A DNA stretch of 64,000 bases from Sedimentisphaerales bacterium (GTDB lineage Bacteria; Planctomycetota; Phycisphaerae; Sedimentisphaerales; Anaerobacaceae), in contig JAFGDN010000032.1 of the NCBI GenBank assembly GCA_016932095.1, forward strand, positions 1 through 64,000, in the 5' to 3' direction. The translations under genes were made by a program, and so were the position numbers. Below, in pieces: positions 58,543-62,662 of this stretch. The notes under the pieces are model-generated. The model made no database searches. It saw only the letters and a program-made list of their open reading frames with translations, and was not told where the DNA came from. Positions within the stretch are counted from its first letter, which is position 1. Every line of letters starts with the position of its first letter.

Positions 58543-58546
58543 TTTC

Positions 58547-58578
58547 ACCATAGAGACCGCGAAGAACGCAGAGATTTT
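58547..58578 (-). repeat. Inverted copy of the CTTCGTGTCTTCGTGGT-type spacer repeat
   Basis: CACCATAGAGACCGCGAAGAACGCAGAGATTT, after the SDR stop, is a degenerate reverse-complement relative of the leader at 59567-59603. Together the two copies flank the AT-rich gene at 58643-59341. Confidence 0.5.
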
Positions 58579-58642
58579 TATATCTAATTTCTGATTTAAA
58601 CAATTCGGACCTGTCCCCTTTTTGCACGGAGTTCCAATTTTC

Positions 58643-59341
58643 TTATTGAGGATTTCCCATACGATTGTTAAACATTGATAATCGTGGCAGTGCATGCGCT
58701 GCAAGGCAATTTTTATATTCTTTAGAGGACATCTGCAATATTTCCATATTGGCTGTTAGCATAAAATCGAGCAGGATATCGGAATATTTTAAACATTGCT
58801 TAAACATTCTTTTCTGATAGAAACGACCTGTCCCATATTGTATAGGGCAAACTTCTTTAAGCCATTTACCATAAGGGTGTGACCATTCACATAAATTATT
58901 CCAGAATTTCTTTAATTTTTTCTTTTCGTTAAATTTTAGAAAATCTATTGAACCTATACGTGTTTTCATTGAACCATTAACGTTAGTTGAAATTCCCACC
59001 AATAATTCAAAAAGAGTCCGCATGATTACAATTGAACTTAAGTAATCTGTTGCCCCAAGTAAGTAAAGTGAACTTTTATAGATTTTAACAAAATAGCCAA
59101 GGAAAAGAGCTATTTCTTTTATGTTTTTATGAAACCGAGATTTATTTGACATTTTACTAAGTGACTTTTTAATAAGCCTCTCTGTATAGACTGTTAAGTA
59201 AAAGGCGTTAGTTAATTTTAAAAACATTCTTATATCAGTACACATTGATTTAATAAAAGGCTCGACAACATCATAATCGATCGACTTTTTAACGATTTCT
59301 GTTAGTTGTATTAATTCTCGGTCTAATTTCGGGGACTGCAT
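58643..59341 (-). CDS. AT-rich helical protein of unknown function, possibly HEPN/DUF5677-like
   Basis: I chose the ATG at 59341 (MQSPKLDREL) because AAAGGA precedes it. The upstream extension to 59476 reads through a hairpin repeat and is not credible. The 232-residue protein is all-alpha and Lys-rich. IVIMRTLFELLVGISTNVNG and NNLCEWSHPYGKWL resemble the RxxxE and late-His elements of DUF5677/HEPN-type proteins found in defence or toxin contexts. This similarity is weak and from pattern only. The base composition is clearly more AT-rich than the neighbours, and the gene lies between inverted repeat copies, so it was probably acquired. Confidence 0.6.
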   Translation of the reverse strand: MQSPKLDRELIQLTEIVKKSIDYDVVEPFIKSMCTDIRMFLKLTNAFYLTVYTERLIKKSLSKMSNKSRFHKNIKEIALFLGYFVKIYKSSLYLLGATDYLSSIVIMRTLFELLVGISTNVNGSMKTRIGSIDFLKFNEKKKLKKFWNNLCEWSHPYGKWLKEVCPIQYGTGRFYQKRMFKQCLKYSDILLDFMLTANMEILQMSSKEYKNCLAAHALPRLSMFNNRMGNPQ

Positions 59342-59379
59342 ATTTATTTCCTTTTGATTTATAAAAGCGTTAGCCGGAC

Positions 59380-59407
59380 GGCCCTTCTTCGCTGCGATAC
59401 GAAGGGC
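59380..59407. repeat. Hairpin GGCCCTTC...GAAGGGCT upstream of the AT-rich gene
   Basis: GCCCTTC and GAAGGGC enclose TTCGCTGCGATAC (59381-59407). It lies in the leader region of the minus-strand gene. It has the look of a dispersed REP-like palindrome. Confidence 0.5.
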
Positions 59408-59566
59408 TGGGCCAGTTGAAAGCCAAAGGAGCGTTGCCCTTTGTTGCAGTGTATTGTTAATCTGAAGAGAAAACAAGCTTTTTGCAGAAGCGGAGAATAA
59501 TCAGTGAAATCTGTGAAATCCATACTTCACTAAAGCTTCGCAGGGCAGGGTCGCGTTTAAAAATTC

Positions 59567-59603
59567 TCTTTGTTTCTTCGTGTCTTCGTGGTAAAAACCC
59601 CCT
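59567..59603 (+). repeat. Leader repeat directly before the aldolase start
   Basis: ATTCTCTTTGTTTCTTCGTG then TCTTCGTGGTAAAAACCCCCT, abutting ATGGA. The sequence is nearly the same as 60639-60676 before the flavoprotein gene. No Shine-Dalgarno is visible between the repeat and the ATG. Confidence 0.65.
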
Positions 59604-60386
59604 ATGGACATAAAAGCAACGATACAAACTTTAATCAGGGATGGCTTTATTCTCGTTTTCAATGAGGACCGGCTGGATATTGTTAAGACGGCTGGGGCGC
59701 TGGTTGAGGCGGAAATTGGAAATATGGAAGTAACCTGCCGGATTAAAAAACCGCTGGAAAAGTTAAGCCGGCTGCGTAAAGAATTGCCTGAATTTGTCAG
59801 CGGGATGGCGAGCTTAATAGATGAGCCAAAAATGCTCAGAATCATCAACAAAGCCAATCCCGACAAGGCGATGCCGACGGTCGATGAAGTTGTTGAGGCG
59901 GGGGCGCAATATCTTGTCTCAGCGGTCAATTTCAGTAAAAGCACATTCGAAAAATACGCAGGCAAGCTGCCGATTATACCGGGCTGCGGAAGCGCGACCG
60001 AAATTGTAACGCAATTCTCGCTTGGAGCGAATTTGTGCAAGGTTTTCCCCGCCAAAGAGCTTGGCGGGCCGGCCTTTATCAAGGCGGTTGACCCCGCGAT
60101 TCATAAGCTGATTAGCTTGGTCCCCACAGGCGGCACAAATGCACAAAATATACCGGACTATATCGACACCGGCGTTCTCGTATTAGGCGGCTCTTTCAGC
60201 GCGATTGAAAAGAGCGTATTTGCGAAAATCGTAGAGCAGCAGGATTATAAACTGCTTAGCGGTGAATTGAAAATGATGAAGGACCTTATTGACCAGAGGC
60301 GCAAACAAAAATGGCCGACAATCGATTTCGGAAAATGCTCGGTTGAGGATGTTAGCCGGCTAACCGGACGAAACTTCAATATATAA
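59604..60386 (+). CDS. KDPG/KHG aldolase family protein
   Basis: A 260-residue class I aldolase like 2-dehydro-3-deoxy-6-phosphogluconate / 4-hydroxy-2-oxoglutarate aldolase. Seen: Glu42 in GNMEVTCR, IPGCGSATEIVTQFSLGAN, the Schiff-base Lys146 in LCKVFPAKELGG, and LVPTGGTNAQNIPDYI. At 260 residues it is longer than the usual 205-215, with about 40 extra C-terminal residues (LKMMKDLIDQRRKQKWP). Its neighbours (SDR and flavoprotein) suggest it is the cleavage step of a sugar-acid pathway. The exact substrate is unknown. Confidence 0.9.
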   Translation: MDIKATIQTLIRDGFILVFNEDRLDIVKTAGALVEAEIGNMEVTCRIKKPLEKLSRLRKELPEFVSGMASLIDEPKMLRIINKANPDKAMPTVDEVVEAGAQYLVSAVNFSKSTFEKYAGKLPIIPGCGSATEIVTQFSLGANLCKVFPAKELGGPAFIKAVDPAIHKLISLVPTGGTNAQNIPDYIDTGVLVLGGSFSAIEKSVFAKIVEQQDYKLLSGELKMMKDLIDQRRKQKWPTIDFGKCSVEDVSRLTGRNFNI

Positions 60387-60388
60387 TT

Positions 60389-60422
60389 TTCACCACGAAA
60401 TCACGAAGAAAACACGAAGATT
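60389..60422 (-). repeat. Inverted copy of the leader repeat after the aldolase gene
   Basis: TTCACCACGAAATCACGAAG then AAAACACGAAGATTT is the reverse-complement form of the element at 60639-60676. The two copies flank the hairpin element at 60454-60583. Confidence 0.6.
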
Positions 60423-60453
60423 TAACTACAGATTTGACACAGATGGACACTGT

Positions 60454-60583
60454 TTTTGCTCGGCTTGGTGTTCTCGACGAATCCTGCTTGTTTAAGCAAG
60501 CTTAGTCGCAGGATTCGTCATCGCCCACCTAAGGCCTTTGGCCTTCATTTTTATCCGCCGAGGCGGATAAAAGCCGAGCAAAA
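60454..60583. repeat. Nested cloverleaf-like inverted-repeat element
   Basis: The outer stem TTTTGCTCGGCTT (60454-60466) pairs perfectly with AAGCCGAGCAAAA (60571-60583). Inside it are three hairpins. GACGAATCCTGC (60476-60487) pairs with GCAGGATTCGTC (60508-60519). AAGGCC-TTT-GGCCTT spans 60531-60545. TTATCCGCC-GA-GGCGGATAA spans 60551-60570. All stems are perfect, which is unusual for neutral spacer DNA. It may be a miniature mobile element, a structured RNA or a REP cluster. Confidence 0.8.
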
Positions 60584-60638
60584 GACACGGATTTTCGGCT
60601 ACTTTTATGGAAGAGGAGCATTTCTAACAATAAATTTT

Positions 60639-60676
60639 CCCTTTGTGTCTTGGTGTCTTTGTGGTAAAAAAATCCT
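60639..60676 (+). repeat. Leader repeat directly before the flavoprotein start
   Basis: ATTTTCCCTTTGTGTCTTGG then TGTCTTTGTGGTAAAAAAATCCT, abutting ATGGA. It matches the leader of the aldolase gene at 59567-59603. Confidence 0.65.
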
Positions 60677-62662
60677 ATGGAATCGTTAAAGATTGGAAAA
60701 CAAAAAATAACGCTCTGCCGATACAACACCGTTATCGTCGGCTCCGGTGCGGCGGGGCTTAACGCGGCGGTTCATCTTTATGAATTCTTCACACAAAAAG
60801 GAATCGCGGACGCCCAAAGCCGTATCGCGATAGTAACCGCGGGTGTAACGCTTGGCGCATCGCGAATGAGCGGCTCGGACAAGCAGACCTATTATAAAAT
60901 GGGAACCAGCGTCGAGAACTCCGACTCGGCTTTGGAATTTGCCAAAACGCTAACGGCAGGCGGCTGCTGTCACGGCGATTTGGCTTTGGCAGAAGCAATC
61001 GGTTCGCTGAGGGAATTCTATCACCTTGTCCAGATTGGTGTGCCGTTTCCTCACGATTCAACGGGAAGTTTTCTGGGCTATAAGACCGACAATGACCCGT
61101 CCGAGCGGGCGACATCCGCTGGGCCGTTGACAAGCAAAATGATGTGCGAATGTCTGCAAAGGCGGGTTGTAAATTACGGCATAAGGATTTACGACCAGCA
61201 GGAAGTCGCGCATTTAATAACCAAAAATCACCACATCGTCGGCGTTGTTACGATTGATAAAAAAAAGTTGAACGCCAAAAATTTCGGCATAAACGTTTTC
61301 CAGTGCGAGAATCTCATACTTGCTGCAGGCGGTCCCGGTGAATTATATAAAACAAGCGTTTATCCCAAAGGCCAGGCAGGCATTCACGGCCTTGCGTTCA
61401 AGGCAGGGCTTGCCGCTGAAAATCTGACAGAAACACAGTTTGGCCTTGCAAGCACAAAGTTTCGCTGGAACATGTCGGGCTCATATATGCAGGTCATTCC
61501 CCGGATTTTCAGCACCGACGCCGAAGGCGGCGATGAGAGGGAATTTTTGACGGTTTTTTTCCTGACGATGAGCAAAATGGCCACGAATATATTTCTCAAG
61601 GGTTATCAGTGGCCTTTTGACCCGCAGCGAATTGAAAATCAGCAGTCCTCGCTTATCGATATTCTCGTATTTAACGAGACGCAGAAAAACAGACGCGTAT
61701 TTCTGGACTTCAGAAAAAATCCGGTCGGCAATTCGAGTATGACACCCTTTGCGATTGAAGACCTTGAGCCGGAAGCCCTTAACTACCTGAAAAAAACCGG
61801 CGCGATACAGAAGACGCCGATAGAGCGACTCGCCTGTATGAATCAGCCGGCGATTGATATATACAAAAAACACGGCATTGACCTCTACAAAGAGCCACTG
61901 GAAATCGCCGTCTGTGCCCAGCACAATAACGGCGGCTTCGCCGTTAATCACTGGTGGGAATCGAGTGTGGAGCGGACTTTTGTCGTCGGCGAAATGGCAG
62001 GAACCCATGGCGTAAAACGGCCTGGGGGTGCAGCGCTAAATTCCGGACAGGTCGGCTCATTGCGTGCAGCCGAATTCATCGCCAATGCCTATGATGCCGA
62101 AATACCATCAAAAAATTCAGCAGCGAAAGAAATTAAGATACAGGTAAGTGAGCTGGTTGCGAAATTCACGGCTGGGTCGCTTACAACAAAAGATATAATC
62201 GATGAGATTCAATCACGTATGACCGCCTCGGCGGGCCATATCAGGGAAATCAACGACGCTCGTAATGAATTAGCCCAGGCAATCGCTTTGGTGAGTCGGA
62301 TTAAACAAAATGGTATTCTCATAAAAAGCACAAAAGATATTTCCGCCGCAATCAGGGCGGAGCACCTTGCACTGGCAAGCGTTGCTTATTTGAAAGCAAT
62401 TGTAACGTTATTGGAGCAGGGCAGCGGCTCTCGCGGCTCGCACCTGGTGTTATCGCCCGACGGCCTCCTTATCGGCGGCACTGAGTTACGTATCAAGCCG
62501 GAAAATCAGGGATTGCGCAACTCAATCCTGCGAGTCGAATATGACCCCAAACAGACGGATTTATTCCGCTGTGAAAACATCACGCCCAGACCCTTCCCGG
62601 CCGAACGCAAGGCATTCGAACCCGGCTGGAAAGATTTCAGAAACGGAAAAATCTTTTCATAG
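60677..62662 (+). CDS. FAD-dependent oxidoreductase, fumarate reductase/succinate dehydrogenase flavoprotein-like
   Basis: The 661-residue protein has an N-terminal FAD-binding motif (VIVGSGAAGLNAAVHL) and a later capping domain. ENLILAAGGPGELYKTSVYP is typical of the fumarate reductase flavoprotein family, and GEMAGTHGVKRPGGAALNSGQVG contains the second FAD contact. A helical C-terminal domain follows (about 480-560), as in SdhA/FrdA. There is no obvious signal peptide, so it is likely cytoplasmic. The active-site Arg/His set cannot be assigned with certainty. Its physiological acceptor is unknown, and it may work with the Fe-S flavin enzyme at 56260. Confidence 0.87.
   Translation: MESLKIGKQKITLCRYNTVIVGSGAAGLNAAVHLYEFFTQKGIADAQSRIAIVTAGVTLGASRMSGSDKQTYYKMGTSVENSDSALEFAKTLTAGGCCHGDLALAEAIGSLREFYHLVQIGVPFPHDSTGSFLGYKTDNDPSERATSAGPLTSKMMCECLQRRVVNYGIRIYDQQEVAHLITKNHHIVGVVTIDKKKLNAKNFGINVFQCENLILAAGGPGELYKTSVYPKGQAGIHGLAFKAGLAAENLTETQFGLASTKFRWNMSGSYMQVIPRIFSTDAEGGDEREFLTVFFLTMSKMATNIFLKGYQWPFDPQRIENQQSSLIDILVFNETQKNRRVFLDFRKNPVGNSSMTPFAIEDLEPEALNYLKKTGAIQKTPIERLACMNQPAIDIYKKHGIDLYKEPLEIAVCAQHNNGGFAVNHWWESSVERTFVVGEMAGTHGVKRPGGAALNSGQVGSLRAAEFIANAYDAEIPSKNSAAKEIKIQVSELVAKFTAGSLTTKDIIDEIQSRMTASAGHIREINDARNELAQAIALVSRIKQNGILIKSTKDISAAIRAEHLALASVAYLKAIVTLLEQGSGSRGSHLVLSPDGLLIGGTELRIKPENQGLRNSILRVEYDPKQTDLFRCENITPRPFPAERKAFEPGWKDFRNGKIFS

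Follow-up and report, generated by a model that had tools for sequence, protein, structure and literature searches.

A covarying cloverleaf repeat family behind polar arrays of short motifs in Sedimentisphaerales-type planctomycetes

Small structured repeats are already known from bacterial genomes and the REP sequences and REPINs with their RAYT proteins in particular, which are described as short, extragenic, palindromic and dispersed, with compensating changes and no gene of their own, are thought to move in trans as folded single strands (PMC3116915, PMC3733652). The MITE-like families ERIC, Correia/NEMIS, RUP and YPAL are likewise small and mobile, with inverted ends, a potential to fold and a dispersal between genes (PMC2229807, in part), and the attC sites of integrons work as folded single strands in which unpaired bases are recognised and the sequence is otherwise variable (PMC2727003).

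We report a dispersed family of cloverleaf-like sequences, about 105-145 bp long, in Sedimentisphaerales-type planctomycetes, of which one copy lies at positions 60454-60583 of the window, by which we mean the whole stretch of 64,000 nucleotides of a Sedimentisphaerales genome that was analysed. What is new is a structured mobile-repeat family with an unusual link to arrays of short repeats. The family is seemingly undescribed: searches of the open-access literature returned no description of the cloverleaf element or of its arrays and, of six array strings sought in the parts of that literature covered, one occurs, in two papers whose subjects are unrelated. To our knowledge, few families show such strong pair-by-pair compensation and we know of none that keeps a fixed direction relative to arrays of a short, degenerate motif lying upstream.

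The initial annotation had described four mismatch-free stems in the window copy, all of which were found at the positions it had given. The third hairpin is 11 bp long and has 2 bp in common with the outer stem, so that the 9-11 bp originally quoted is correct, the range arising because the last two bases of this hairpin also belong to the outer stem. Two helices come in addition to the four, a GGTG/CACC pairing at the base of hairpin 1 and a small apical hairpin (Table 1). Folded as RNA, the region reaches -69.8 kcal/mol, compared with -46.8 (sd 3.8) in 200 dinucleotide shuffles, none of which was equally stable (z = -5.99). One of the four perfect stems is a nested palindrome, hairpin 3, which lies outside the core of the family; it is absent from the own-genome copies C86 and C11, and palindromes of the TTATCCGCC-GGCGGATAA type also occur elsewhere, at L033, L039, L042 and L045 of genome G022.

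Table 1. Features of the window cloverleaf, of the block that holds it and of a second insertion in the same operon
Feature	Position	Strand	Remark
Inserted block, 290 bp, holding the cloverleaf	60387-60676		3 bp at this junction in relatives G002 (L129) and G003 (L130)
Neighbours of the block	60386; 60677		KDPG-aldolase gene ends at 60386; FAD-protein gene starts at 60677
Left array arm, TTTTCACCACGAAATCACGAAGAAAACACGAAG	60387-60419	+
Second array, ACAGATTTGACACAGATGGACACTG type	60427-60452	+	Runs straight into the cloverleaf
Outer stem, 13 bp	60454-60466 with 60571-60583	+	12 of 12 outer pairs with both-side changes, 104 copies
Hairpin 1 base, 5' side GGTG	60467-60470, pairs with 60526-60529 (CACC)	+	Conserved GYG/CRC
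Internal loop TTCTC, conserved	60471-60475	+	Alignment columns 18-23
Hairpin 1 body including 12-bp stem	60476-60519; stem 60476-60487 with 60508-60519	+
Hairpin 1 apical hairpin, CRAG loop	60492-60505; 60492-60496 with 60501-60505	+
3' strand of internal loop and base, conserved (A/T)TCGNCCRC	60520-60529	+	Alignment columns 95-103
Hairpin 2, 6 bp, sequence variable	60531-60545; 60531-60536 with 60540-60545	+	T-rich linker next
Hairpin 3, nested TTATCCGCC/GGCGGATAA palindrome, 11 bp	60549-60572; 60549-60559 with 60562-60572	+
Right array arm, inverted CACGAAG-like array	60641-60668	-
Second array-armed insertion, same operon, 1061 bp	58543-59603		G002 and G003 have 10-11 bp there
277-aa ORF inside the second insertion	58643-59476	-

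The cloverleaf is multi-copy, with 8-9 copies in its own genome (2.95 Mb, 94 contigs), where a DNA search gave three further long matches (C31, C86, C11) together with fragments; the same kind of search gave matches in 7 of a related set of 41 genomes. A covariance model, R1, built from an alignment of 16 copies and a structure taken from single-sequence folds, counted 45 copies across the genus, which has four genomes here (E 0.05), and found, at E 0.01, cloverleafs in 38 of the 89 genomes of the bacterial family. A second model, R2, built from 104 copies, at E 0.001 matched 46 of the order's 161 genomes, 41 of them in the family and 5 in other families, and the fold is spread over 27 genera of the order. 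R2 also matched two of 391 other genomes when the phylum was sampled sparsely, one of which (G485) looked genuine and has an array upstream; the match in the other (G134), a coding-like stretch rich in repeats, was judged false by eye. Furthermore, a strict exact pattern, of the kind that 26 of the 104 copies would satisfy, occurs in 40 stretches among some 85,000 species genomes, 39 of them titled Planctomycetota, Phycisphaerae, Phycisphaerales, Sedimentisphaerales or planctomycete and one 'uncultured bacterium'; it had 0 matches in viral contigs.

The cloverleaf fold is kept by compensating changes and is clearly not that of a single copy without covariation. RNAalifold, applied to a structure-blind MAFFT alignment of 16 copies, recovered the outer stem and the apex, with both-side changes in 12 of the 16 predicted pairs. 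With the fuller structure, the 16 copies show such changes in 25 of 35 pairs, amounting to 77 cells as against 28.5 when shuffled, and 85.2% of cells are paired, compared with 31-46% when the structure is slid along the alignment. Covariation is stronger still in the 104 copies from 82 loci, in which 33 of the 35 pairs change on both sides (846 cells, 275 when shuffled) and 85.9% of cells are paired (31-45% when slid), although these counts overstate the independent events because the alignment was fitted to the model and contains related copies; the direction is not in doubt. A few of its rows are partial copies (L094:1786, L091:163, L088:317, L075:1790, L119:1687), and others share a common origin through inheritance or segmental duplication (L083:191 and 852); the cells therefore do not each represent a separate event. 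The outer stem is free to vary in sequence with its pairing kept, 92.4% of the cells in its 12 model pairs being paired among the 104 copies. That the whole might be a chance palindrome or an assembly artefact, as the position of several copies near contig ends could suggest, is scarcely credible against a z of about -6 and 104 covarying copies in independent assemblies. The purity of the stems had been taken at the outset to imply recent mobility or selection; recent mobility stands for the family, but purity does not hold as a general trait, many copies having mismatches.

Directly upstream of the cloverleaf lie arrays of 9-11-nt repeats (CACAGAGNN, CACGAAGNN, CACNGATTNA) in a single orientation, examples being CACAGAG-NN-CACAGAG-NN-CACAGAG, CACGAAG-NN-CACGAAG and CACTGATTNACACTGATT. 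With a motif set that was written after examples had been seen, an array unit was found within 80 nt upstream in the sense direction in 87 of 96 copies and antisense in 1 of 96 (8 of the 104 rows were dropped for short or repeated flanks), the background being 5.4% of 1598 window tiles of 80 nt with both strands counted. This upstream signal fades over about 300 nt. Downstream of the 96 copies the unit is sense in 43 and antisense in 5, and antisense arrays are not enriched there. A CACAGAG array also precedes a copy in G516, a genome that belongs to another family of the order; this copy has a different outer stem and was not in the training set. Nine of the 96 copies are without an array motif within 80 nt upstream, which counts against an array-linked DNA reading. 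The array pattern is present in 84 of the 89 family genomes and arrays without cloverleafs exist, the numbers of cloverleafs and arrays per genome being modestly correlated (rho 0.39). In the own genome CACAGAGNNCACAGAG has 40 matches and the reversed pattern has 0.

In the window the cloverleaf stands within an inserted block with an array arm at either side (Table 1). Three relatives of the genus were searched and the gene downstream of the block is present in two, both with the 3-bp junction; these empty junctions give no clear target-site duplication, and the flanks are themselves repeats. The second insertion in this operon is of the same kind, and its 277-aa ORF is without a match in Pfam or PADLOC. 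Over all loci examined, neighbouring arrays face inward in 29 cases, outward in 16 and the same way in 49. The gaps between inward arrays are of 15-78 bp (n=15) or of 190-3449 bp (n=14); one of the latter, at L037, encloses a cloverleaf. Only at L037 and in the window does a cloverleaf have inverted arms to its left and right, and this rarity counts against an array-linked DNA reading. Of eight places in the own genome that were viewed closely, five have inward-facing arrays (L250, L251, L252, L253 and L255; L257-L259 do not) in a common layout of GCCACAGAG, a spacer and TTTAGCCACAGAG-NN-CACAGAG-NN-CACAGAGAA around one or two ORFs, which sit between core genes named by eye as argF/argD, gcvH/gcvPA, proB, aroE and pyrG.

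Several further observations concern the arrays themselves. Among the cargo at L250, L251, L252, L253 and L255 are an ORF resembling T5orf172/GIY-YIG, a BD-FAE hydrolase, one weakly matching SIR2 and ORFs without an assigned kind; no transposase was found among the scanned cargo ORFs. At L275 (G050:C2) the gene enclosed by arrays has matches to DUF6602 and to the PADLOC PD-DExK/NucC models. Inward array pairs only tens of bases apart, at L356, L357 and L358, fold as long array-armed hairpins. At L258 and L259 (C39 and C92 of the own genome) CACAGAG arrays lie in frame within coding sequence, reading ATEHTETTE and ATEDTEDTEDTE, in ORFs that by eye are peptidase-like and leucyl-tRNA-synthetase-like. 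One 44-kb IMG/VR contig filed as viral (L281, L323, L337) holds at least 10 matches of the triple CACAGAG pattern. This pattern occurs in 78 stretches among viral contigs and the arrays therefore extend past this bacterial family.

Three species of the genus have near-identical copies of the cloverleaf, 96-98% alike (L135, L142, L106), with flanks that are 0.57-0.75 alike, resembling each other no more than arrays in general do, and other near-identical copies lie in unrelated places within one genome; for comparison, G002 and G003 agree at 85% in the DNA of the operon. Since the block is absent from two relatives and near-identical copies stand at unrelated sites, the cloverleaf is mobile. 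The general reading of the initial annotation, that of a mobile or selected palindromic element which may be MITE-like, a protein scaffold or a structured RNA, holds because the sequence is multi-copy, covarying and inserted. We favour, with a probability of roughly one half, a non-autonomous mobile DNA element whose folded strand is recognised and which is mobilised in trans, along with the array-armed insertions. Neither an enzyme nor an excision product nor a clear target-site duplication was found for the cloverleaf, which counts against a mobile-DNA reading.

The more specific proposal, of a REP or MITE moved by a Y1-type transposase, is not supported. The cloverleaf is, as REPINs are, a dispersed extragenic palindrome with compensating changes and without a gene of its own, but it differs from them in its branched core of 105-145 nt, its conserved internal-loop bases and its fixed orientation behind repeat arrays, and it does not follow the GTAG/CGTC rule of REP tags, GTAG lying within 8 nt of an end in 1 of 104 copies and CGTC in 10 of 104. 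Nor is there a linkage to Y1 genes, which occur in 34 of the 38 genomes with a cloverleaf and 43 of the 51 without (Fisher p 0.55), four cloverleaf-carrying genomes being without a Y1 match; 21 Y1 loci contain 0 cloverleafs. The search of the own genome for a TnpA-REP gene gave a single Y1_Tnp gene (L052, C56) with no cloverleaf nearby and with different flanking repeats, its own, of the GTGCCCGCGTGAGGA type. We consider it very unlikely that the cloverleaf is a REP/REPIN-like element mobilised by a Y1 (RAYT) transposase.

Of the other described systems, a MITE has terminal inverted repeats, which the outer stem provides here; from the families ERIC, Correia/NEMIS, RUP and YPAL the cloverleaf is set apart, on their descriptions rather than letter by letter, by its polar arrays, its variable outer stem and its lack of an Rfam match. 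It would share a working style with attC but is branched rather than a single hairpin, with no cassette arrays or IntI shown. The ends of attC carry the boxes RYYYAAC and GTTRRRY, and an identity with attC was rejected, the R-box pair being at the ends in 0 of 104 copies. Genes for IVP (PF05635), a protein linked to IVS insertions in 23S rRNA, similarly lie between inverted arrays whose repeats are short and degenerate, but with other motifs. Such brackets are frequent around the IVP genes at L150-L161, where the repeats are of the TCGTGNC, CAGCGTNCAG and AACGGTTN types. As a partner of the cloverleaf IVP was rejected, with 0 cloverleafs in 30 IVP loci.

Whether the cloverleaf acts as DNA or as RNA is approached through its base pairs. 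A structured RNA, either a small RNA or a UTR element, might be spread by mobile arrays, transcribed from array to cloverleaf and ended at hairpin 2 and the T-rich linker. The very strong covariation and the conserved unpaired bases are in keeping with this, as is a terminator-like hairpin 2 with its T-rich linker, present in 19 of 101 copies where shuffles give 2.5 and the antisense strand gives 0, the window copy being one that is terminator-like on the plus strand. In RNA families, G-U pairs are expected to exceed A-C mismatches on the transcribed strand. In the 104 copies, over 32 of the 35 pairs (the poorly paired columns 14-104, 19-99 and 41-68 being excluded), there are 124 G-T cells and 140 A-C cells and thus no wobble excess on either strand; the outer stem alone has more G-T (57) than A-C (35) and hairpin 1 more A-C than G-T. 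A tRNA control (n=12) gave 3 G-T and 0 A-C and is too small to weigh much. Against an RNA, furthermore, it is the other strand that forms the more stable fold, in 80 of 99 copies when computed as RNA and in 89 of 99 when computed as DNA (99 of the 104 being used), the 290-bp block has no promoter-like site, and a scan of the window gave 0 Rfam families at the gathering score, the best sub-threshold match having 19.4 bits where 48 are required and the weak matches being judged chance. The terminator is missing from most copies, and with 19 of 101 terminator-like it was rejected as the main role. Taken together the evidence leans towards action at the DNA level, and the structured RNA is a possible but doubtful reading.

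Alternatively, the cloverleaf could be a conserved structure for binding or stalling in replication, transcription or chromosome organisation, kept for the host, with dispersal secondary. The conserved internal-loop bases, a fold that is kept over 27 genera and the position of 98 of 104 copies where no open frame of at least 200 codons spans them would suit such a role. It is made improbable by the insertion inside a tight operon and by a patchy distribution, 51 of the 89 family genomes having no R1 match at E 0.01 and copies per genome ranging from 0 to 34.

For the mobile, folded-strand element that we prefer, a course of events can be suggested. The strand would become single, through replication, transfer or extrusion, and fold into the cloverleaf, whose fixed internal-loop and apex bases, GYGTWCT...TCGNCCRC and AAGCRAGCTT, could then be read by an enzyme encoded elsewhere. 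This putative enzyme would place the cloverleaf at an array's inner end, and the arrays would serve as arms of larger insertions that may enclose nothing, a cloverleaf or a gene. More tentatively, we suggest that the cloverleaf is one cargo of an insertion system that has yet to be described. Hairpin-like elements would have as their arms the polar arrays, whose short motif (CACAGAGNN and its kin) leaves two positions free; the arms would hold between them no cargo (gaps of 15-78 bp), a cloverleaf or one gene, in some cases nuclease- or defence-like, and the elements would enter core-gene junctions. A putative enzyme that builds or moves these elements would use the folded strand of the cloverleaf as its site of recognition or priming.

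The cloverleaf offers a sharp handle in the search for such an enzyme, as the 46 of 161 genomes of the order that carry it can be sorted from the others. Should the arrays prove to form the arms of a cassette-like insertion system, single genes, defence-like ones among them, would have in it a way into the operons of planctomycetes and perhaps of other organisms.
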